Positions 21,410-39,004 of a stretch of DNA of 39,896 nucleotides are shown piece after piece (the first letter of the stretch is position 1; each line of letters starts with the position of its first letter). The notes below the pieces were generated by a model. It worked only from the letters and a program-made list of their open reading frames with translations, did not search any database and was not told the origin of the DNA. The position numbers were made by a program, and so were the translations under genes. The stretch covers positions 1 through 39,896 of IMG/VR virus record IMGVR_UViG_3300027749_000226, one strand, 5' to 3'. This DNA is from a virus.

Positions 21410-21652
21410 TCACCCCCGAAAAATTTGTCGCCGAGTTACAACCGCATTGCTCTTGGGTTCCTCGTCGTTGTCTTGAATCGGCGACATGGGTTCGGCCCCT
21501 AAATTGGATTTTGCTGGCCCACCAGAGAACGCGAGGTCGAGGTCTTTGGCTTCTGCGGAAGAGACGGGCCGCTTGGTCAGTTTTCCCCACATACGCATTG
21601 CCCGACCGCTGTCGGACATACCAGACAAAGGGACAGTTACTTGTTTAGCCAT
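21410..21652 (-). CDS. Small hypothetical protein after the polyvalent gene
   Basis: 80 residues, polar, with a short helix (DSGRAMRMWGKLTKRP). No transmembrane segment or motif. Its ATG at 21652 lies inside the end of the 1552-residue gene, a 16-nt overlap, so it is likely translated by coupling. No family recognised. Confidence 0.6.
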   Translation of the reverse strand: MAKQVTVPLSGMSDSGRAMRMWGKLTKRPVSSAEAKDLDLAFSGGPAKSNLGAEPMSPIQDNDEEPKSNAVVTRRQIFRG

Positions 21653-24600
21653 TCGGGGGGACGGGCCTTGATTGCTTCTCGGCCACCAGACAATTTAATA
21701 ACCTCATCTCTGGCATCGTCAATACCCAACGACCCGTTGCGGACTTTATCATGGACCCCCTTTATCGAGGACAGGAACGCATCAGTTTTCATGTCGTCGG
21801 TGAACATGATACGGACCATCTCCCAAGTGATAGACTGCATTTGGCGCGGCAACAGGTCGCGCTGTTGGGCGGCACGGCGACCAGCTTCAAGATAGAGGGG
21901 ATAAGTGCCTTGCAAGCCGGTGACCGTGGTGCCGACAACCGGCAATCTCGGTGCCGCTGGGTCGTCGGCATTCCCGCCGAAATTGTGTTTCACCTCAAAG
22001 GCAGTGCCACCTAATGGGGTCAGAAGAGACGCCGCGACGTTGTGGGTGTCGGACGTGTAAAACAGCGGGCTCATCGGATCGATGACGTTACCATTAAAAT
22101 TTCGCACCTTGTGCCCGCCCCCGAGTGCCATCGTGAGATTGTTGACCGACCCATCCAAAAACGAACTCACCGCGTTGGAAGCAATCGAGATCCCCGCCCA
22201 CGAGACTGGGACCGACGACCCCGGGGTCAACTGACCTTCAGGAGTCACAAGGTACGCACTCTCGGGATGCAACGACTGGGAAAGGAACCGAGTGAAGACC
22301 GTTTTCTCTTCGAGACTATCGAGGTCGGAAAGCTTCTTGCCCGACAGATTTCGGATCAAATCGTACAAGACCCGCTTGGACGCTGTAGTGCCCGTGCTTA
22401 TCTTGATTGAAGCCCGGGCAGCTTTTTCCACTGCGGCGTCAAACACGGTGTCCTGATGGTTGCGTAGCACGTCCATCACGTTTTCGGCGAGACTGACGTT
22501 GGCGAACCAGTTCTTTTGCGGGGAGAGCGTGGCGATAATCGCTGCCGATTGCTCGACGGAGATGCCATATTGGTCGGCAAATTTCTTGGCTATGACGTTG
22601 GCACCGTCGTACCACTTCGACATACGCTTCACCACTTCAGGACCAAACGTGTCGAGCGCAAGATCGTGCAAGAACAACAGATTGTCCGACATGTCGTTCG
22701 CAACCATGTCGGCAGCGGCACGCACGTCTTTCGCTTGGTACGTTTCGGGGCTGAGACCGGGGTAGTACTTTTGAATTACGGGTACATGAGCCTCGGCAAG
22801 AGTGATATCTTTGCCCGCGAACTCGGACACGCCCTTGGCCTTAAAAACCTTGTCGGCATATTGACCGAAATCAATGACTGGAATTTCTACCGTCTTGTTC
22901 TTGCCCGTCACGACCGTCGGAAGAGCATTTTGCTTGGTAATGTAGATCGGAATGAACCCTTCAGAGTCGCCCCTGAGATTTTTGGGTAAATCGGCGACGT
23001 CGACGGGATCTTCGGTCACGCTCTCGCGGATCGGCTGCTTGGCTAGGAGGCTCGACCGCTCGGGCTCGGATTGCCCGAGTGCAGAGCGCCAGTCGGTAAG
23101 CTCTTCGGGCAACAACGCCATCTTCTGAGGGGCATATGGTCGGTCTTTGGCGGGGATGTTTTTGTTGACCCCATTTTCGTCGTAGTTTTGGTCTCCAAAA
23201 TTGACCCACGAGTTTTGACCTCTGGTTCCGACCGATAGGGCTCGTTGAGCTTCGGGGCTGAACATCTGACTGTGCTTGAGCCAAGCATTCTCTTCGCCAC
23301 GCGGGCCGAACTGATAGTCTTCGGCGGCGTGTCCGTACAGATCATGGATTGCACGAAGCTTGTCGATGGACGTAAGACCTGTTTCAGGGTCAACCTGACT
23401 CATAAACTCATGCTTACCTCCCCCTCGGAAAAAGTAGAGGTGGTTGTTGTTCCTCACGTCTTCCATCATCTCGCGAGAATTGGCGTAGGGCTGTCCATCT
23501 TCGGTCCACGGCTCAAAATTTATGCCGAGGTTCTCGACCGCAAAGTCCCACTGGTCGTTCACCTCTTTTGCAAGAGCCTCATACGCCTTTACGGTCTCAG
23601 GAGACCGATCAATTTCAGGCATCGCGTCGTAGGCTTTGGCAATCTTCCTAGCCGTAGCCTCGTCAAAGTTGACGTAGTGACCATGTTCAATCGGACCTAA
23701 TCCCATCTGAGCGTTGTAGTCGTCGGAAAGTTTCCGTACTGCTTCGTTGGGTGTGCGGACAGCCTTTTTTGAGCCCGCTTTTGGCTCGTCGGGTTCGACC
23801 GGATCATCGGTCGTGCTCTCGCGGATCGGCTGCTTGGCTAGGAGGCTCGACCGCTCGGGCTCGGACGGCTCATCCGGCTTTTCCGACGCGAGAACCCCAC
23901 CCTTGGGCTTCTCCGACGCGACTTTATCAACTGCTTCCTGCTGAATCCTCAAAGCCTCTTCGTACGAGACCAACGGAACGCTGTCACGAACTTCCGAATA
24001 CGCATCATACTTGGTCAACCCGAGTTTGTTTTCGGGATCTCGAACCATGAACACATTGTCGGGCCGACCGTTCTCTTCAAAGTTCCATTTAGGCGGGGCG
24101 AAATCGTCGTTGAACGTCACTCGCGCCACGGGTCTGAAACCAAATCGCGAGTAATAATTCGGCAAGAACTCGTCGATATCGAACCCATCAAGCTTGGTCG
24201 CTTCTTGCGATGCATCGATGAGAATGTCGCGCATTTTGGCGGTCGAGTCAGGGTGTTTGAACACCGACACCAGATCGCCATCGGGCTTTACCACTGCTCC
24301 AGCTAGGCCGTCTTCGGAAAAGTAGAGGTGGTTTTCGGGGTCTGAGTAGAACTCTGGCGACTTAACCTCAACTGCCGCGCCTTTTTTATGGAGTCGCGCT
24401 GCTTCGGCGATAGCTCTTGCAAAATCTCCTCCTCGCTCATCAGAAGAGACATAGAAGCGGCTTTTTGGTAGTGCTCGCGCTGGTCGGGAATCTTCTTGTT
24501 CGACGCTAGTGGATTCATTGGTATTCTTGTTAAGATTTTCCGATTCGATGTCAAGGGGTTGATCCGTCGTGCTCTGGCGCATTTCTCCACTTCCCTCGGC

Positions 24601-26295
24601 CACCGGAGCCCCACGATCGCGAAGCTCGCGCAACAGGGCTCGTGCCGCCTCCTCGTTGGTCATCTGAATACCGAGTTTACCATTCATCCACTCTCGGATC
24701 TTGGCGATGATACGGGCAAAGACTCCCGGCGATTTCTCCTGATTGCGAGCGATCCACTCCTCCACCAACATCAGGTTGTCGGCGTTGGGGTAGCGTTTGG
24801 CGATGGCGTCGAGTTCGCCTTGGGGGATATCGCGTGTCGCGAAATCAACTAAGGCCGACTGACCATCTTCCGACGACAGGAGGCTGTGAGCCAGTTCATG
24901 GTGGACTACCGACTCGACCTCAAAAGGCTTGGTGAATGCTGCATTGACGACTACTTCCTCCGTGTTCGGATCGAAATATCCGCGAATCCCATAGTTGCGG
25001 CTGTTCCGCATATTCGGGTCGTTGATGACGGTAATATTGGTCCCCACATCAGGGTTCTGACTTCTCCACTCGTCGAGAGCCTCTTGGACCGGAGCAACGA
25101 ACTCGTCCGTTGCTGCGACGGGGGGCTGACGCATTTTCTCAAGGGTCGAGACGTCTTCGGGACGTGGTTCAATGCCCTGCGAAGTTGCGGTCCGCGTATC
25201 GATAGCCGCAGCGAATTCCTCGGGGGACATCTTCTCAACCTCTTGAAGTGAGATTCTCGGGTGGTCGGTGGTGGATTCGAGAACGGTAAGGTCTTTGCTG
25301 GTCGCATCCGATGCCAGTGGCTCGCTAGACTTGCCCGCCGTAGTTTCACCCTCTGGCACCGGACGCGATATAGGTTCACGACGGGAAATTGGTTCTCTTT
25401 GGGCCAGATGCGCCCCCGCCCCAGCCAAGCCGCCGATGACGGCTCCCTCAACCGCAGATCCGCCTGTATCCGCAAAAGCCTCACGAGTGGGATCGACTGG
25501 TTTGGCGAGGACGTTTTCCGCCACTTTGGCCCCCACGTTCTGCACGGCATTCTGCGCGGCTTCGCCCGCCATGCCCGAAAGCACCGACCCAGCAGCTTTG
25601 GGAGCCCCCGCAAAAGCCCGCTCAAGGGTCTGAGCGCCCGGAATGAAAGGGGCGGCAGCTCCGATAGCTCCCGCAGCCATCCCGGTCTGTCGGGCGATCT
25701 GGAGCGCCAGAGCAGTTTTTGCCATTGAAAGGGGCTTACCTTCCCCGACCGCTTCAGCGATCTGGGGGATCTTCATCGCGTCTTCGTCCGGCATCTTGTC
25801 CAACGTCTGGACAAGGGTGTCGTATTGCGCCCCACCGCTTCCAGATCCCATCATGGCGGCGTTGGTCGCCATCGATGCGCCCACACCCACGTTAACAGCG
25901 GCGGGGGCCGACAGAACTCTTCCAGCAACGGCTTTGGCACCGGCACCGGCACCACCGCCAGCGACCAATGCCGGGGCGGTCTCGGCCAGCGTGTTTGCCG
26001 CCAGACTGGGAGTGGCGAAAGTATGCTCGACGTAAATCAGCGCCTGCTTGAAAGGGTTTTTCTCGGCGGATACTGCCGCATTGCGGGCTTGCTGGGCTAG
26101 TCGCAGGTCTTTGGACTTACCCTGTTCAAGGTAGTCAATATTTTCCTTCGCCTGCCTCGACACGGTGTTGTCCATCTTCCCCGTGATCAGACCATAGAGG
26201 TCGCCCGCCATCTTGAGGAGCCCGTTGGAGCCCACGGCAAACGAAGTGCCGAGGTCTTTTACGGAGGTGTCGAACTGGTCAAATACGTTGGGCAC
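21637..26295 (-). CDS. Polyvalent internal virion protein with metallopeptidase and DUF7178-like domains
   Basis: 1552 residues, the largest protein here. Residues 1-339 are Ala/Gly-rich with several hydrophobic stretches, as in ejection proteins that enter the host envelope. Residues 347-573 hold an HExxH motif (HHELAHSLL, H466-H470) with acidic follow-up at 511-513, a zinc peptidase-like module. Residues 600-790 hold an alpha/beta module with YYSRFGFRPVARV, reminiscent of a GNAT-like fold. Residues 860-1036 hold IHDLYGHA and TRGQNSWVNFG, found in phage polyvalent proteins. From about 1108 the chain resembles DUF7178 (ATLSPQKNWFANVSLAE, then HKVRNFNGN). A GTG start at 26295 follows the previous stop by 2 nt. 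By position it is the last ejection protein, as T7 gp16. Confidence 0.8.
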   Translation of the reverse strand: MPNVFDQFDTSVKDLGTSFAVGSNGLLKMAGDLYGLITGKMDNTVSRQAKENIDYLEQGKSKDLRLAQQARNAAVSAEKNPFKQALIYVEHTFATPSLAANTLAETAPALVAGGGAGAGAKAVAGRVLSAPAAVNVGVGASMATNAAMMGSGSGGAQYDTLVQTLDKMPDEDAMKIPQIAEAVGEGKPLSMAKTALALQIARQTGMAAGAIGAAAPFIPGAQTLERAFAGAPKAAGSVLSGMAGEAAQNAVQNVGAKVAENVLAKPVDPTREAFADTGGSAVEGAVIGGLAGAGAHLAQREPISRREPISRPVPEGETTAGKSSEPLASDATSKDLTVLESTTDHPRISLQEVEKMSPEEFAAAIDTRTATSQGIEPRPEDVSTLEKMRQPPVAATDEFVAPVQEALDEWRSQNPDVGTNITVINDPNMRNSRNYGIRGYFDPNTEEVVVNAAFTKPFEVESVVHHELAHSLLSSEDGQSALVDFATRDIPQGELDAIAKRYPNADNLMLVEEWIARNQEKSPGVFARIIAKIREWMNGKLGIQMTNEEAARALLRELRDRGAPVAEGSGEMRQSTTDQPLDIESENLNKNTNESTSVEQEDSRPARALPKSRFYVSSDERGGDFARAIAEAARLHKKGAAVEVKSPEFYSDPENHLYFSEDGLAGAVVKPDGDLVSVFKHPDSTAKMRDILIDASQEATKLDGFDIDEFLPNYYSRFGFRPVARVTFNDDFAPPKWNFEENGRPDNVFMVRDPENKLGLTKYDAYSEVRDSVPLVSYEEALRIQQEAVDKVASEKPKGGVLASEKPDEPSEPERSSLLAKQPIRESTTDDPVEPDEPKAGSKKAVRTPNEAVRKLSDDYNAQMGLGPIEHGHYVNFDEATARKIAKAYDAMPEIDRSPETVKAYEALAKEVNDQWDFAVENLGINFEPWTEDGQPYANSREMMEDVRNNNHLYFFRGGGKHEFMSQVDPETGLTSIDKLRAIHDLYGHAAEDYQFGPRGEENAWLKHSQMFSPEAQRALSVGTRGQNSWVNFGDQNYDENGVNKNIPAKDRPYAPQKMALLPEELTDWRSALGQSEPERSSLLAKQPIRESVTEDPVDVADLPKNLRGDSEGFIPIYITKQNALPTVVTGKNKTVEIPVIDFGQYADKVFKAKGVSEFAGKDITLAEAHVPVIQKYYPGLSPETYQAKDVRAAADMVANDMSDNLLFLHDLALDTFGPEVVKRMSKWYDGANVIAKKFADQYGISVEQSAAIIATLSPQKNWFANVSLAENVMDVLRNHQDTVFDAAVEKAARASIKISTGTTASKRVLYDLIRNLSGKKLSDLDSLEEKTVFTRFLSQSLHPESAYLVTPEGQLTPGSSVPVSWAGISIASNAVSSFLDGSVNNLTMALGGGHKVRNFNGNVIDPMSPLFYTSDTHNVAASLLTPLGGTAFEVKHNFGGNADDPAAPRLPVVGTTVTGLQGTYPLYLEAGRRAAQQRDLLPRQMQSITWEMVRIMFTDDMKTDAFLSSIKGVHDKVRNGSLGIDDARDEVIKLSGGREAIKARPPEWLNK
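23020..23070 (-). repeat. 51-bp direct repeat, copy 1, in the polyvalent gene
   Basis: Identical over 51 bp to 23815-23865. It encodes SEPERSSLLAKQPIRES (residues 1076-1092) in a linker between two modules. Confidence 0.9.
23815..23865 (-). repeat. 51-bp direct repeat, copy 2, in the polyvalent gene
   Basis: Identical over 51 bp to 23020-23070. It encodes residues 811-827 of the same protein. Identity at third codon positions points to recent duplication or gene conversion. Confidence 0.9.
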
Positions 26296-26297
26296 GT

Positions 26298-28121
26298 TTA
26301 GCGTTGTTTGAGGTATCGAGCTGCTGAACCCCGACCGTACTTGGCGTCAAATTGCGCGGACAACTTGGGATCTTGAATGAGCATCTTGACCGCGTTGGGA
26401 GGTGGATTGGATGGCCGCACCATCTGCTGTCCAACCTGTTGACCGGCGGTGCGGGTAGCGGCGCTTTGTAGTTCGGTAGCCAACGGAGCAATCGCAGTCG
26501 GGGCCATTGCAGCTATAGACCTCTGTTGAACACCCGGTGACAACAGGTATTCGCGTGCCGCTTTGCTTGCCACTGGTTTTGCAAAAGCTGCCGCCACCGT
26601 AAGCGGGAGATTCCCAGTTGTAAGGCCGACCGTTCCAGCCAGAAGACCCTGACCGGCCATGCCGAGGGCACTGACTTCTGGGGAAGTTACTTTGGCGGGG
26701 TCGCGCAGACTGTTCGGAAACGCGGCTTTGAACTCGGCCAATAATTTGAGTTCCGCTCCAAGGGGCACCCCGCGTTTACTCATCCGCAGCGCAACGTCCG
26801 GGTCAATGTGGTAGGTGCCCGGATTCATCATCTCGTCGATGTTGTATGTCCGGGCAATCCGAATACGGGCCTTGTCGAGGCTGTCGGCTAAAGTTGCGTT
26901 GCCAGTCCTGCGAAGCGTCGCATCGATACTCGCAGATAGTTGCTCGGCCTGCTGCTGGAGTTGGATGGCTTTCTGCTGGGCCTCGATGTTTCTGCCTGCC
27001 GAATTAAAATAGGCGTCCCACATCCCTTGGGTTTCGCCCCTAACTTTGCGAAGGTCTTCCACGCTGGCAGCAGCCTGTTCACCCAAATCAGCCATCTGTC
27101 TGCCAAACTTTGCGTCGAATGCCTCCAAATCAACCTCCGCTTGGTGCGCTGAAGAAGCGTTAGTCTCAATACTCGCCCTATCCTGTTTCAGCACGTCGAG
27201 CTTTTGTTGGGCCTTTTCAGCCAGCTCATCAATCTGTTTGTAGACGTTGGATTCCGTCGCCCGAATGCTCTTGGTGAGCATCGGGGTCAGCTCCACGTCC
27301 TTGGCCACTCCGATTGAGGCTTTGGCGAGGTCATCGACTGCGTCTGAATTGGCCAACTGGATGCGCTGATTGACAGCCGCTTTTCCGCCCAGACTCTCCA
27401 ACTGCGTGGTCACAAAACTCGGGTTGGCATCCGACGGGACGATCTTGAGTCCGCGAGCTGCCCCAGCTTCCAAAGTTCGGAGTTCTTGGGGCTTATTGGC
27501 CAATGCCGCAGCCACTGCCGATTTGCTGCCACTGGAGAGAAGTTTTTGAGCCGCACCACCCAGAACCGCAGCGGGCAGTCCCGCTGTAGCCATTTCCTCT
27601 CCGGTGAGAAGCTGGCCTTTGTTGAGCATCTTTTCCGTGCCCGCAGCCGCTACACCTGCCGCGCCCTGTTTTAAGGCTTCTTTGGCAATGGCCCCCGCGC
27701 CTGTTCCACCCGCTGATCCTCCGGGCACCCCACCGAGTCCGGTGTTGGCGACGAACCTCCCAAGGTCAAATTTCTTACTTGGGTCCGAATACATCGAAAC
27801 CGCTTGGTTGATGAGGTCTGCCGATCCTCCACCGATCGCACCCCCAGCCATGCGCCCCAAGGAACCAAAACGCGACCCGACCGCTTGCCCGATTGCAGTA
27901 CCGACAACCTGAGTACCGAGCTCACGAGCAGTGGTGCCCAAACCGGGACCAGATTCTGGTTCGGCTGGAGCGACAGGTTCAGGGGCAGATGGTTGCGGAG
28001 CAGCCGCTGGCTTTGGGGCTGGACCAAACAACGACTCCAAGTCTTCTGGAGTGGGCGAGTGGTCGCCCTCCAAAACAATCGTACGACCAGTGAGGTTGTC
28101 CTTGACCGTGTATTTAGCCAT
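26298..28121 (-). CDS. Internal virion / DNA ejection protein
   Basis: 607 residues. The N-terminus (YTVKDNLTGRTIVLEGDHSPTPEDLESLF) is a short segment common at the start of podovirus ejection proteins. It is followed by a Pro/Ala linker (33-60) and a Gly/Ala-rich hydrophobic region (60-200). Residues about 270-430 are Gln/Glu/Lys-rich helix, probably coiled coil (KAQQKLDVLKQDRA, then QKAIQLQQQAEQLS). A second hydrophobic Ala/Leu region (485-530) precedes a polar tail. This fits proteins stored in the capsid that leave with the genome to form a channel across the host envelope. The start is ATG; it lies 2 nt from the next gene. Confidence 0.8.
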   Translation of the reverse strand: MAKYTVKDNLTGRTIVLEGDHSPTPEDLESLFGPAPKPAAAPQPSAPEPVAPAEPESGPGLGTTARELGTQVVGTAIGQAVGSRFGSLGRMAGGAIGGGSADLINQAVSMYSDPSKKFDLGRFVANTGLGGVPGGSAGGTGAGAIAKEALKQGAAGVAAAGTEKMLNKGQLLTGEEMATAGLPAAVLGGAAQKLLSSGSKSAVAAALANKPQELRTLEAGAARGLKIVPSDANPSFVTTQLESLGGKAAVNQRIQLANSDAVDDLAKASIGVAKDVELTPMLTKSIRATESNVYKQIDELAEKAQQKLDVLKQDRASIETNASSAHQAEVDLEAFDAKFGRQMADLGEQAAASVEDLRKVRGETQGMWDAYFNSAGRNIEAQQKAIQLQQQAEQLSASIDATLRRTGNATLADSLDKARIRIARTYNIDEMMNPGTYHIDPDVALRMSKRGVPLGAELKLLAEFKAAFPNSLRDPAKVTSPEVSALGMAGQGLLAGTVGLTTGNLPLTVAAAFAKPVASKAAREYLLSPGVQQRSIAAMAPTAIAPLATELQSAATRTAGQQVGQQMVRPSNPPPNAVKMLIQDPKLSAQFDAKYGRGSAARYLKQR

Positions 28122-28126
28122 GACGG

Positions 28127-30577
28127 TTATCGCTGAGAAGCCTCGGACTGTTGACGGTCAAAATCATCCACCGGTGTGGTGAGCTTATAGCCTGCCGATG
28201 CCCAGCTCTTGCGGGTCTCCCTCAGATCCCCGAGGGCTTTGGCCCGCCTCTGGTCGTCAATCTTAGCTGCCCAAATTGCCCGGTAGGCATCCGCCCAACG
28301 GTCCCCCAAAGTCCTAGCGGGATCGGCCTTGGAGTTAATGTACCAGTCGGCCAGAAGATCCGACAGAAGAGGTTGTTTCTTACCGTACTCGCGCTTGATG
28401 TCGGTGTTGGTAAACCCGAGTGCGTCAGCGACAGCCGGACCGGCATTCTTGTTAATAGTTTCGCCAGCCAAATAGCCCGTACCAAAAGCGACAGCGCCGA
28501 GCCCGCCAACTCTAGCCACACTAGCGGGACCGGAAAGTCCCGGGAGACCTTTTCTCAACTGGGCAACCGTGCGTGCCATACTTTGGTTTTTAAGAGCCGC
28601 AACCGCCTGTGGCACATATTTAGCGAGCGGGGCTGCGGTAGCGGCTGCGCCACCGGCGGTTGCCAATACCTGCCCCGTACTCATACCCGTATCGGGAGCA
28701 GCAGCAGGAACGGCAGCGGGAGCTTCCTCGGGTTCGGGGGTAGCAGAATCCGATGAAACAGTAAGCCCTGAAGGAGTCCGAGGGGCCGTGGCGGCGGAAA
28801 CGGGAGCCGCGTTATCGGGCTCTCCAGTGGGATTCGACCCGTAGGGATTCGACCCATCGGGATTTGACCCATAGGGATTCGATCCATCGCTGACAGAGTC
28901 AGTGGGAGTCACCGGCTCGTCAGGCGTTGTGGAGAACCGGTTTTCCCGGGCGGTAGGTGAGCGGAAATTCATCCCACGCGGGGCCATGGAACTGGGCTGT
29001 TCGAAAGACAATTGTTCTGCCGAGGCTCGCGGAGCTGCCGAGGCGGGATCTGCGGGAGGAGTAAATCCCCGCTTTATGGCTATTTCGGGCTTACCATACG
29101 CAGCCACGACTGCTTGCCAACCGTTGGCGTTGTTCTGGAATATCTCAGAATCAATCGTTTGCTTCGCAGCGGCTGCTTGAGAAGCCATATCAACCTTCAG
29201 ACGGTCTAGAACCGCAATCATTTGCGATGGCGATAGCTTACCCCCGGTTATACTAGCTAGACTCTCTTTAAGTATCACGCCTTCCTCATTCGATAATTGC
29301 CCCATTCCAGTAGCCCCGGTAGCAGAAGCGGATTTGAGCTTTAGCATATTCCCAATGGTATTCCGGCTCTTTAGAACATTCGTAGCCTCTATGAAGTCGG
29401 CGTTCGTATTCAGCCAATCGCGAAATTTTTCTGGTACATAACCACCACCAGTATTTAAATAGCCAGAGTTTTCAACGCTCTTCCGTATACGATCAATCAC
29501 ATCGCCAGTTATAGCGTCTTCTTTTTGTAAAGCCACCCATTGATTTAGGTGGGTCTTTTGTATATTCAGGGCTTTTAGGGCATCATTCGCTACCCCCGAT
29601 AAATCGTTTAGGAGACGGGTTTTTCCCTCGTCACCTTGGACTTGATCAACTGCCGATCCAGAACTACCGTCCCCGTATTTCGCTCTGGATTTCGCTTCGG
29701 CCTGTGCGGCCTGTGCGTCCTGCTTACTCACACCAAACACGGAAGGCATGGTCGTTCCACCAGTCATTGGAGACGTTGCTACCATGCCAGCCAATGGTGC
29801 TCCAGCCGAACCCACCCCGCCGCCCACTTGTGCAGTCGGTGCCACCCCGCCGCCCACTTGTGCAGTCGGTGCCACCCCGCCGCCCACTTGTGCAGTCGGT
29901 GCCACCCCGCCGCTCATTGGCACTCCAGTTTGTGAAGATCCCGGCATCCAATCTTGGCCCGCTACGCGCATGGCACCAGAATTCGTAAACTGCACTGGAA
30001 CCCCGTCGTTAGTGTACATCATGTGTACCTTATTAAGGTCAGCATCTAACTTCGCTTTTTCCTCGAGTTTAAGTTCTTGGCCCATGGCCCGACGAACAGC
30101 CAAAGTCTGCTCCTCATTCAGCTTCCCGCTATCGAGCATGCCCTGCAATTGGGTGAGCTTTTTAACCGCTGGAGACATGTTCCTGCCTGCCAGCGTCTCC
30201 TTCACAAAAGCGGGGTCCGATAGCACCGCATTTTTGACGGCCTGCGCTTGGTATCCAGTGCGATTTGCTTGTTGGGCCAGTCCCACGTCCGGCATCGCGG
30301 CATTAGTCTGGGCGGCAAACAACTGAGACTTGGCCCTATCAGCCGCCAAGGTATCCGGCAAATTGGACAGGAGCCCCTGCGCTTGTGCGGTCTGATACGC
30401 CGTTGTGGCGTCGTTTAACCCTTGAACATGTTGGAGCGTGCGGAACGTCTCGTTCTGTTTTAACGCGCTGGTGACGCTGTCGTAGATGGCTTGCGTGTCC
30501 ACCTTGCCCACGTTCGTCGGGATCGACGGCGACTGTTGTAACTGCTGTAGCTGAAATCCTGATGTTTCAAGGGCCAT
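28127..30577 (-). CDS. Large internal virion protein with repeat linkers
   Basis: 816 residues. The N-terminal 220 residues are helical and Gln/Ala-rich (TAYQTAQAQGLL, then LNEEQTLAVRRAMGQEL). Three exact 10-residue repeats (GGVAPTAQVG) follow at about 223-252. A helical domain spans about 290-470. A Pro/Ser/Asn-rich disordered linker containing SNPYG/SNPDG repeats lies at about 535-635, then a hydrophobic Ala/Gly segment (TGQVLATAGGAAATAAPLAKYV) and a C-terminal helical part. The order between two other internal proteins suggests an ejection or core protein. The central DNA (about 29.15-29.65 kb) is visibly lower in GC than either end, a hint of mosaic origin. Confidence 0.75.
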   Translation of the reverse strand: MALETSGFQLQQLQQSPSIPTNVGKVDTQAIYDSVTSALKQNETFRTLQHVQGLNDATTAYQTAQAQGLLSNLPDTLAADRAKSQLFAAQTNAAMPDVGLAQQANRTGYQAQAVKNAVLSDPAFVKETLAGRNMSPAVKKLTQLQGMLDSGKLNEEQTLAVRRAMGQELKLEEKAKLDADLNKVHMMYTNDGVPVQFTNSGAMRVAGQDWMPGSSQTGVPMSGGVAPTAQVGGGVAPTAQVGGGVAPTAQVGGGVGSAGAPLAGMVATSPMTGGTTMPSVFGVSKQDAQAAQAEAKSRAKYGDGSSGSAVDQVQGDEGKTRLLNDLSGVANDALKALNIQKTHLNQWVALQKEDAITGDVIDRIRKSVENSGYLNTGGGYVPEKFRDWLNTNADFIEATNVLKSRNTIGNMLKLKSASATGATGMGQLSNEEGVILKESLASITGGKLSPSQMIAVLDRLKVDMASQAAAAKQTIDSEIFQNNANGWQAVVAAYGKPEIAIKRGFTPPADPASAAPRASAEQLSFEQPSSMAPRGMNFRSPTARENRFSTTPDEPVTPTDSVSDGSNPYGSNPDGSNPYGSNPTGEPDNAAPVSAATAPRTPSGLTVSSDSATPEPEEAPAAVPAAAPDTGMSTGQVLATAGGAAATAAPLAKYVPQAVAALKNQSMARTVAQLRKGLPGLSGPASVARVGGLGAVAFGTGYLAGETINKNAGPAVADALGFTNTDIKREYGKKQPLLSDLLADWYINSKADPARTLGDRWADAYRAIWAAKIDDQRRAKALGDLRETRKSWASAGYKLTTPVDDFDRQQSEASQR
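28838..28884 (-). repeat. 15-bp in-frame repeats coding SNPYG/SNPDG
   Basis: Three to four near-identical copies of a 15-bp unit, GGATTCGACCC(A/G)TAG-like, encode Gly-Ser-Asn-Pro-Tyr/Asp in a disordered linker of the 816-residue protein. Confidence 0.7.
29821..29910 (-). repeat. Three perfect 30-bp tandem repeats
   Basis: Identical 30-bp units at 29821, 29851 and 29881 encode GGVAPTAQVG three times. They are adjacent and in frame, so this is a coding minisatellite and not a CRISPR array. Confidence 0.9.
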
Positions 30578-36895: not shown

Positions 36896-39004
36896 TTACC
36901 AGATGGTTGATATGATCGCGTTCGACGTGCCGCCATCCGTCACACTGGATGCCCCCGTGTTGTTGATTTGATTGTTATTCGCGCCGGAATCCAAAACAAT
37001 GCTCCCCCCACCGTAAAAACTGTCGCACACAATCGAGTTTATCACTCCGGTGAAGAAATGAAGAAAGCGCACGATTCCAAACGCGATGCAATTTGCGACG
37101 AGAATTCTCTCGCATGGCCCTTTCACCAAGAGGACAACGCAGTTGGCCGTAGTGAACTGTTGAAACTGACACCCCTTGATTATGACCTCGCCGCCGGTCG
37201 ATGGGGTGTTACCGGTGAAGTCCAAATATATTCCCACGTTAGTGTAAGAGTCGTTCGTGTCGTTCCCTTGGTCGATCTCAACGTCCGAGAAGTTCAAAAC
37301 CCCGGTGAACCCCCCCGGATAGAGATGGATACCCTCGCCAACGGCCACCAAATGAACGCCGTTGACCAAAATCCCTTGGGCGTCTGGTCCTTTAATCGAG
37401 ATTCCTCGTTGGAAAAAAGACGCATTGACGTTGGCTATGTTGACGTTGGTTCCCCCGTCCAGCGTTATGAAAGCTCCAGATCCCGCTCCGCTGATTGGGA
37501 CTTTACCGCTTGGAGCCGCGCCAAATCCTGAGACATCGTAAATGTGAGCCTTCCACGGGTTTTTATAGTAGATCCCATCCGTCCAACCTCCTCCACCGGT
37601 CCCCCCGAAAGCTTCCGTGTTGATCTCAACCCGCGTGACGATAGACCCGTTAACATCCTCGTTGCTCGCCGATCCGTCGTAGTTGATGTAAATGGCTTTT
37701 CCGGCTATGTTGGTTCCTGTCATCAACCCGAGATCGCAGATTTCAACTCGGCAGCGTGGCGAGCTACTGGTCGTCGTTAAATTGACCGTTATCCCGTTTT
37801 GTCCAGTTCCCGTTTGAAGGATCTGTGAGGAGAACCGCCCGTTGCCCTTGATTGTGCAAACAAAGTCCGCGTTGAGCGCCACGACGATGGCAGAGTCCAC
37901 CTTGTAAGTGCCATCGGGAAAGTAGAGCGTACCTCGGGTGTTGCCGGATGAGTACGCTTGTAACGCAGTGATGGCGGCGTTAATGGATGTGATATCGTTC
38001 GTCGTGCCGTTGCCGATAGCGCCGTAATCCTTGACGTTAAAAAGATCCCGATAAAACACATCCTCCGTCGTGGCTCCGGTGGTCCCGTCAGGATACCGAC
38101 GACGAGCCGGACCCAGCGTTGTTTTTGCCGTGAAGGTGGTGCCGGTCGCACCCGTGACGCCAGCGGGGCCAGTTGCACCCGTCGCGCCCTTGACGCCCGA
38201 GACGCCCGAGACGCCCGAGACGCCAGCGGGGCCGGTTGCACCCGTGACGCCCGTGACGCCAGTAACGCCCGTAGCGCCCGTCACTCCAGCCCCCGAGACT
38301 CCAGCGGGGCCGGTTGCACCCGTGACGCCAGCGGGGCCAGTTGCACCCGTCGCGCCCTTGACGCCCGAGACGCCCGAGACTCCAGCGGGGCCAGTCGCGC
38401 CCGTAACGCCCGTAACGCCCGTGACGCCTGCCCCCGTGACGCCAGCGGGGCCAGTCGCACCCGAGACACCTGTGACGCCCGTAACGCCGGTCACTCCAGC
38501 CCCCGTGACGCCAGCGGGGCCAGTCGCGCCTGAAACGCCCGTAGCGCCCGTCACTCCAGCCCCCGTGACACCTGCGGGGCCAGTCGCGCCCGAGACGCCC
38601 GTGACGCCCGTGACACCTGCCCCCGTGACGCCAGCGGGGCCAGTCGCGCCCGTTGCGCCCTTGACGCCCGTCGCGCCCGTGACGCCTGCCCCCGTAACGC
38701 CCGTAACGCCCGTGACACCCGTAACGCCTGTGACGCCCGTAACGCCCGTAACGCCCGCCCCAGTCGCGCCCGTCGCGCCCGTCGCGCCCTTGATGCCAGT
38801 GGGACCAGTCGCGCCGCCCGGAGTGCCTTGCGAGCCCGTGGCTCCCGTCACACCCGGAGCCCCGGGGTTGCCGTTGTTGCCGTTGCTGCCGGGAGCACCT
38901 TGAGGGCCGGTCGCGCCGGTGGCACCACCCCCCGTGGAGGAGCCTGTCGCACCGCTTACGGTTGCGATCGTGGGAATGGTAAATTGGGTCGGGGAGGAGG
39001 GCAA
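36896..39004 (-). CDS. Collagen-like tail spike with beta-helix domain
   Basis: 702 residues. Residues 18-289 are Gly-X-Y triplets, dominated by GVTG, GATG, GPAG and GVSG units, likely a trimeric stalk. From about 320 the chain turns into a right-handed beta-helix of the pectate-lyase-3 kind: [37 protein letters not shown] and repeated short strands to the end. Beta-helix spikes bind and often cut host surface polysaccharide. The start is a TTG at 39004: no ATG or GTG lies in frame between this and an upstream in-frame stop. It sits 30 nt after the sulfotransferase-like gene. Probable receptor-binding protein. Confidence 0.88.
38138..38953 (-). repeat. Collagen-like triplet repeat DNA
   Basis: About 815 bp of GC-rich 9-bp multiples coding Gly-X-Y triplets, with unit GTGACGCCC-like on the plus strand and many near-identical longer blocks. 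The opposite strand is also open for 277 codons because of the repeat composition. Confidence 0.85.

Follow-up and report, generated by a model that had tools for sequence, protein, structure and literature searches.

A short peptide recurs in each of the four linkers between the five modules of a 1552-aa polyvalent protein encoded in the window, that is, the whole 39,896-nucleotide stretch of virus DNA analysed here (IMG/VR virus record IMGVR_UViG_3300027749_000226; Table 1), and comparison with relatives shows such joints to be points of module exchange. The joints are probably best read as peptides that are specifically recognised by a factor particular to the protein in question; that they are recognition and cleavage sites, cut by the peptidase resident in the same chain, has in our estimate about an even chance.

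The window ORF combines N-terminal, peptidase, GNAT-like, HDLYGHA, and DUF7178 modules in a single chain of a virus record, the composition of a polyvalent protein. Residues 47-401 match the PHROG of the phage N4 virion RNA polymerase (vRNAP; phrog_2206, E=1.6e-15), a giant protein that is ejected, has flexible linkers, and contains an HExxH domain (PMC12633501). Unlike N4 vRNAP, for which no repeated joint peptide has been described, the window protein gave no polymerase-domain match in our searches. Judging by its vRNAP-like N-terminus, the protein is presumably a virion component that undergoes ejection. The second module has the features of a zincin-like MPTase, namely, HHELAH at residues 465-470 and a downstream acidic EEWIA segment that is invariant among relatives; its Foldseek hits include IrrE, ArdC, and jannalysin, which are of the zincin type, yet E>0.1 for all of them. 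The third module matches phage genes annotated as acetyltransferases. It is also matched by a 3125-aa ORF in the 39-kb genome of Limnohabitans phage DC33 (PQ492659), a record filed under Inoviridae in what looks like a misassignment. The HDLYGHA module has hundreds of relatives, and the fifth module is 83% identical in a closely related IMG/VR fragment (L001) and 61% identical in a more distant relative (L216).

Table 1 Features of the polyvalent protein gene and its surroundings in the window
Feature	Residues	Coordinates	Strand	Matches and counterparts
Polyvalent ejection-type protein, GTG start	1552 aa	21637..26295	(-)	PHROG 2206 (virion RNA polymerase), PHROG 3170, PHROG 2563, PHROG 3842, Pfam DUF7178
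Module 1, N-terminal, N4 virion-RNAP-like	1-339	25279..26295	(-)	phrog_2206; kept in L207, L208, and others
Joint 1, ESTTDHP	340-346	25258..25278	(-)	pLDDT<50 segment; counterpart in L207 is RTSTTDTP
Module 2, zincin-type peptidase, HHELAH with H466, E467, H470	349-563 (folded)	24607..25251	(-)	
Joint 2, QSTTDQP	574-580	24556..24576	(-)	FKYSLEDEP in L001, RQSTTEQP in L207
Module 3, GNAT-like	about 617-800	23896..24447	(-)	phrog_2563; 92% identical in L001
80-nt direct repeat, copy 1, linker SEPERSSLLAKQPIRESTTDDP		23786..23865	(-)	Matches L207 joint 3 at 92% (63 nt)
Joint 3, ESTTDDP	826-832	23800..23820	(-)	FKYSVEDEP instead in L001
Module 4, HDLYGHA domain	845-1075 (folded)	23071..23763	(-)	phrog_3170, AlphaFold2
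80-nt direct repeat, copy 2, linker SEPERSSLLAKQPIRESVTEDP		22991..23070	(-)	Matches L207 joint 3 at 96.9% (64 nt)
Joint 4, ESVTEDP	1091-1097	23005..23025	(-)	L216 has RFSLEKE ahead of its DUF7178 module; L215 has RFSLTES behind its HDLYGHA module
Module 5, DUF7178-like, C-terminal	about 1116-1552	21640..22950	(-)	Pfam PF23802, E=1.4e-18
Neighbour gene	607 aa	26298..28121	(-)	Adjoins the polyvalent gene in the clade; backbone marker

Several observations concern the HDLYGHA module in its own right. Its best six Foldseek hits (23071-23763) are all aromatic amino acid hydroxylases, with E values of 0.085-0.64 that are not significant, and the histidine spacing of HDLYGH is that of HELLGH, the iron-binding motif of these enzymes; a non-haem iron enzyme is a lead for this module. 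A search of its profile against PDB yielded spurious TPR hits only. Upstream of the start of the module, several relatives among L090-L169 carry the conserved peptide [LM]FN[DE]P (12 copies vs 0.2 expected by composition), which looks like a part of the module and not of the host protein.

The earlier note had placed ESTTDHP, QSTTDQP, ESTTDDP, and ESVTEDP at residues 340, 574, 826, and 1091, exactly at the module boundaries. The positions are exact, and the placement at boundaries holds in the sense that the peptides lie inside linkers, that is, in pLDDT<50 segments beside folded modules. In AlphaFold2 models built from relatives, joints 1 and 2 fall in such segments on either side of the folded peptidase, and joints 3 and 4 in pLDDT<50 tails on either side of the folded HDLYGHA domain; the window joints are predicted to lie in disordered linkers between folded modules. 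In the window, the pattern occurs only between modules, being absent before the first and after the last, and the six frames contain no further copy elsewhere.

When all 7-residue segments more than 150 residues apart were compared, no other 7-mer recurred four times as strongly anywhere in the protein as the joints, which have a BLOSUM62 score of 89 vs 64.6 +/- 3.4 (maximum 74) in 100 shuffles, an excess of about seven standard deviations. With copy 3 deleted, the other three are not significant in the unanchored search (51 vs 47.7 +/- 2.7), so that the significance of the recurrence rests on all four copies together with their placement. This dependence on the fourth copy, and the richness of the linkers in E, S, T, D, and P, would fit a chance or composition-driven resemblance between linkers. 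The shuffle tests, the confinement of identity to the motif, and the conservation of the joints beside different modules in the relative L207 all speak against such a resemblance, to which we give next to no credence and which the comparison with relatives refutes.

The same comparison reveals where modules change. The L001 fragment is 86% identical to the window protein over residues 571-1552, and the DNA homology between the two starts exactly at the proline codon that closes joint 2, with an unrelated module upstream in L001. The joints of L001 are FKYSLEDEP, FKYSVEDEP, and IRESVTDDP, and at joint 3 the whole linker has been exchanged between ASEKP and DEPKAG. Judging by this pair, the joints are where neighbouring modules change. 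An independent case is provided by L093 and L138, 81% identical proteins that differ by two module swaps delimited by ESRA, the joint peptide of this pair. Here, DNA homology sets in again with the first base of ESRA (residue 1994/2032), is lost just past ESRAVA (2283/2321), and returns eight residues ahead of the next ESRA (2518/2502). Three of the four breakpoints lie within 8 residues of an ESRA; such stretches cover 2.7% of the protein. The earlier suggestion of a joint that lets modules be shuffled is therefore borne out, both by the window and L001, between which similarity ends at the last residue of joint 2, and by the L093/L138 swaps at the joint peptide.

If swap breakpoints fall at joints, the joints might be merely recombination seams, that is, stretches of common linker DNA that allow in-frame homologous exchange, with the peptide itself lacking a function. 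In the lineage of the window, the DNA indeed fits this description. Joints 3 and 4 sit in an 80-nt direct repeat that flanks the HDLYGHA module (90% identity, 51 nt identical), with a spacing of 795 nt, or 265 codons, which keeps the frame. Furthermore, joint 4 of the window and joint 3 of L207, non-equivalent joints with different modules downstream, match at 96.9% over 64 nt, while the peptidase shared by the two proteins matches at the DNA level at only 80%. Joints 1 and 2 are not DNA copies of this repeat, with serine encoded by TCC vs AGC. On this evidence, the linker DNA itself has been copied too in the window lineage.

Codon usage in the joints argues against seams as the whole explanation. 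Between the copies within one protein, identity is 0.88 inside the motif (a value that comes partly from motif selection) and about 0.07 in the flanks, and identical residues share the codon at a frequency of 0.417 vs 0.374 expected from codon usage. The copies in the window protein, L003, L108, L114, and L207 share more codons than expected, so some joints have apparently spread as DNA. Conversely, in L093, L094, L096, L097, and L143, codon sharing is below expectation, with switches between AGY and TCN serine codons; by this codon evidence, the joints of these five proteins are kept as peptides. Likeness of the DNA beyond the need of the peptide is present between window joints 3 and 4 and between the window and L207 but absent in these five proteins. 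Moreover, DNA homology alone would not tie the flavour of the joints to the peptidase across modules, as described below. We consider it unlikely that the joints are seams only. A recurrent site at every module boundary, conserved as a peptide, is found here, as in a self-cleaving polyprotein.

Scans for the N-terminus and peptidase of the window protein identified a clade of relatives (L207-L216); no relatives were found in bacterial genome contigs, and neither module 1 nor module 2 had a match among phage GenBank records. An HExxH motif is present in the window protein and in the seven clade relatives that cover the peptidase region. Eight proteins (the window protein and L207, L208, L209, L210, L213, L215, and L216) were compared with respect to their joints, which come in two flavours: S[TV]T[DE]xP in the window protein and L207, and [KR][FYM]SL in the six others (RFSLS, RFSLT, KFSLS, KMSLQ, RYSLT, and similar). 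The broader pattern [KR][FYMEQT]S[LVT] has 36 copies in nine clade proteins vs 5.8 expected (maximum 13 in 500 shuffles). The earlier note had named a lack of such peptides at the boundaries of homologues as part of what would refute the idea; L207, in which the modules past the peptidase are entirely different from those of the window protein, carries five such joints (RTSTTDTP, RQSTTEQP, RESVTEEP, RESVTDEP, and RFSVTDKP).

S[TV]T[DE]xP fits all nine joints of the window protein and L207, and among the 22 joints of the [KR][FYM]SL kind in the six remaining proteins it fits none, although the Fisher value of 5e-8 for the association of flavour with peptidase is overstated given that joints within one protein are not independent. 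By its backbone, L207 is closest to L216: the two neighbouring upstream genes are 66 and 56% identical and the N-terminal module 73%, vs 36, 34, and 49%, respectively, in the comparison with the window. By its peptidase, L207 is closest to the window (69%), vs 46% to L216; the peptidases of L208-L216 are 40-47% identical to that of the window. All five joints of L207 are of the window type, the fifth (RFSVTDKP) being intermediate. Modules common to the two groups carry joints of different flavours: a C-terminal module that is 81% identical between L207 and L213 is joined by RFSVTDKP vs KYSLTNKP, the flavour differs at the MASPSITDI module common to L207 and L208, the DUF7178 module follows RESVTEDP in the window vs RFSLEKE in L216, and the HDLYGHA module is followed by RESVTEDP in the window vs RFSLTES in L215. 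The joint flavour thus appears to follow the peptidase, not the N-terminus or the neighbouring genes; a single evolutionary switch underlies this concordance. Linkage, as a partial alternative, probably accounts for some of it because joints 1 and 2 lie directly beside the peptidase. In L207, joints 3-5 are farther away, and at least two of them flank modules common to proteins with the other peptidase type.

The two neighbours of the polyvalent gene (26298-30577), of 607 and 816 aa, recur beside it in the clade and have no good match to a named family; they are likely to be further ejection or internal virion proteins. Elsewhere in the window, the product of 36896-39004 is probably a tail fibre or spike; it has collagen repeats (Pfam, 2e-28) as well as a pectate-lyase-like domain (5e-12). 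Three cyanophage records with different host names (OQ594354, OL906435, and PP438419) have the same 65,014 bp and the same match to the window protein and probably represent one genome deposited three times.

Peptide-level conservation and privacy would suit any specific recognition, including that by a non-proteolytic partner, such as a factor for capsid targeting or ejection, a chaperone, or an unfoldase on the portal side, for which the joint would be a docking motif needed once per module. Ejected phage proteins such as P1 DarB have short N-terminal capsid-targeting sequences (PMC9024508), and joint peptides also occur in proteins without HExxH (see below). However, the window motif is found between modules only, with none before the first or after the last, and the flavour appears to go with the peptidase, although the N-terminal module and the adjacent virion genes would be more likely to take part in packaging; docking of this kind is, in our judgement, improbable.

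Joints are found beyond this clade. In a survey of about 90 polyvalent ORFs, each 900 aa or longer and with an HDLYGHA or DUF7178 module, at least 12 unrelated proteins carry a private recurrent joint peptide of their own: ESAR (four copies, at residues 1094, 1298, 1515, and 1887 of a 2772-aa protein) in Planktothrix phage Pag-Yong1, ESRA (five) in L093, ATQFGA (four) in L094, [DS]FSFA (four) in L095, FSVPK (five) in L096, [FW]DESxHPR (four to five) in L097 and L098, TNLKP (four) in L102, [FY]SPSDE (three) in L108, ASFSPK (three) in L114, RAAEQ (four) in L084, LAASE (three) in L143, and DDTLDAR (four) in L156. A private joint is detectable in about 10-15% of the polyvalent proteins examined. 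Three candidates for a motif common to all joints, [FY]S[LIVFM], RES, and LFQ-type patterns, show no enrichment when the polyvalent proteins are taken together, so that joints are lineage-specific. The linkers WDESxHPRDxxGQF and KGGPGSGNFGHxGRPG, which flank the HDLYGHA module on both sides in L097, L098, and L100, look like recurrent joint peptides of other phages.

Since Pfam annotates few of these modules, minima of homology depth were used as the test of boundaries. Private joint sites fall at such minima (0.14 vs 0.54 +/- 0.066), and sites obtained without selection by eye show a depth of 0.355 vs 0.558 +/- 0.060; counting the alignments that span a site gave a weaker contrast (20 of 55 sites vs 30.6 expected, P=1e-3). 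In 14 proteins, the motif of the respective host protein stands 8-30 residues past the HDLYGHA module that they have in common, and the matrix of cross-occurrence is almost diagonal. A test in which the motif was not picked by eye gave a concordant result: for the 45 residues after HDLYGHA, the best match in the same protein exceeds the 98th percentile in 22% of 69 proteins vs 8% of random segments (Fisher P about 0.0025).

Private motifs of this kind also bring to mind a different phage protease, for example, a prohead protease that would cut the joints during head assembly. Phage-specific motifs are cut in P1 gp23 (between E120 and S121) and in P1 DarA (PMC9024508, PMC12810830), as well as in head proteins of SPN3US (PMC10052503). 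Like the substrates of these proteases (P1 gp23 and DarA, and the substrates of SPN3US gp245), the proteins discussed here are presumably head or ejected proteins, with short phage-specific motifs; unlike those motifs, which are common to several head proteins, the joints are found in one protein, between modules. Neither the window nor nine other contigs, of 32-119 kb and scanned whole save for 2.4 kb of one, have the joint peptide outside the polyvalent protein, bar one partial match in a 126-aa ORF of the scanned contigs. We rejected a prohead-protease site on these grounds and regard cleavage by another phage protease as very improbable.

As for the embedded peptidase, an HExxH motif is present in 9 of the 12 first-listed private-joint proteins and in 55 of the 90 proteins of the whole set, an association that is not significant, and the joint-bearing L095, L097, and L098 are without HExxH, so an embedded zincin cannot be the universal factor. 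Among the matches listed for the peptidases of proteins outside the clade, the only relatives are L138 (99% identical to L093 in this region) and distant relatives of L084 that lack the motif.

For the window clade, the concordance of the joint flavour with the peptidase makes the embedded zincin the likeliest recognising factor, and peptide-level conservation with near-saturated codons, together with this concordance, strengthens the case for cleavage. We take the joint to be a short linear motif in a disordered linker, under selection on the peptide and specific to the protein lineage; the zincin of module 2 would recognise and cut it, splitting the chain into modules before or after injection. 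Every module would then have to be flanked by a site that the resident peptidase accepts, and for this reason the joint would double as an exchange seam; an incoming module would either bring a matching joint or have its joint converted. A tentative extension of cleavage by the resident peptidase, to which we assign somewhat less than an even chance, is an interchangeable joint code, in which the peptidase of each lineage reads its own site, all modules carry that site, and incomers are re-fitted.

Several known systems bear on this proposal. Iyer et al. (2017; PMC5512222) described polyvalent proteins of phages and conjugative elements with a zincin-like MPTase, like which the window protein combines a zincin-type peptidase with a GNAT-like module and orphan domains, and proposed processing by the embedded MPTase; in the portion of that paper drawn on here, the sites are unnamed, no joint peptide is described, and the word 'linker' is absent. 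Relative to that account, joints that, by sequence comparison, appear private to each protein and linked to the peptidase type are new. The portion of the paper used here also includes the report that N4 vRNAP, the closest relative to have been studied, is packaged unprocessed, which counts against cleavage, and an analogy to the polyproteins of eukaryotic RNA viruses. Like the latter, the proteins described here have modules split by a recurrent site that is presumed to be read by the resident protease and is private to each lineage; they differ in that the domains are unrelated, the peptidase belongs to another class, cleavage is putative, and modules are exchanged between relatives at the sites. 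Exchange of fragments between phages is likewise known from the shuffling of phage protein domains (PMC10684548), and compared with what the part of that work considered here describes, the repeated peptide that marks the exchange points is the new element.

Private joints provide exact candidate cleavage sites in more than a dozen proteins for which processing by the MPTase had earlier been proposed without known sites, and the natural swap among L207, L216, and the window pairs the peptidase type with the site type. The joints also offer a simple way to locate module boundaries in proteins that are hardly annotated by Pfam, and suggest how highly mosaic proteins remain workable during module exchange. 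If the sites are cut, the embedded peptidases would form a family of diverse, site-specific proteases, and if the joint code is true, polyvalent proteins would be prokaryotic polyproteins with exchangeable, protease-matched cassettes.
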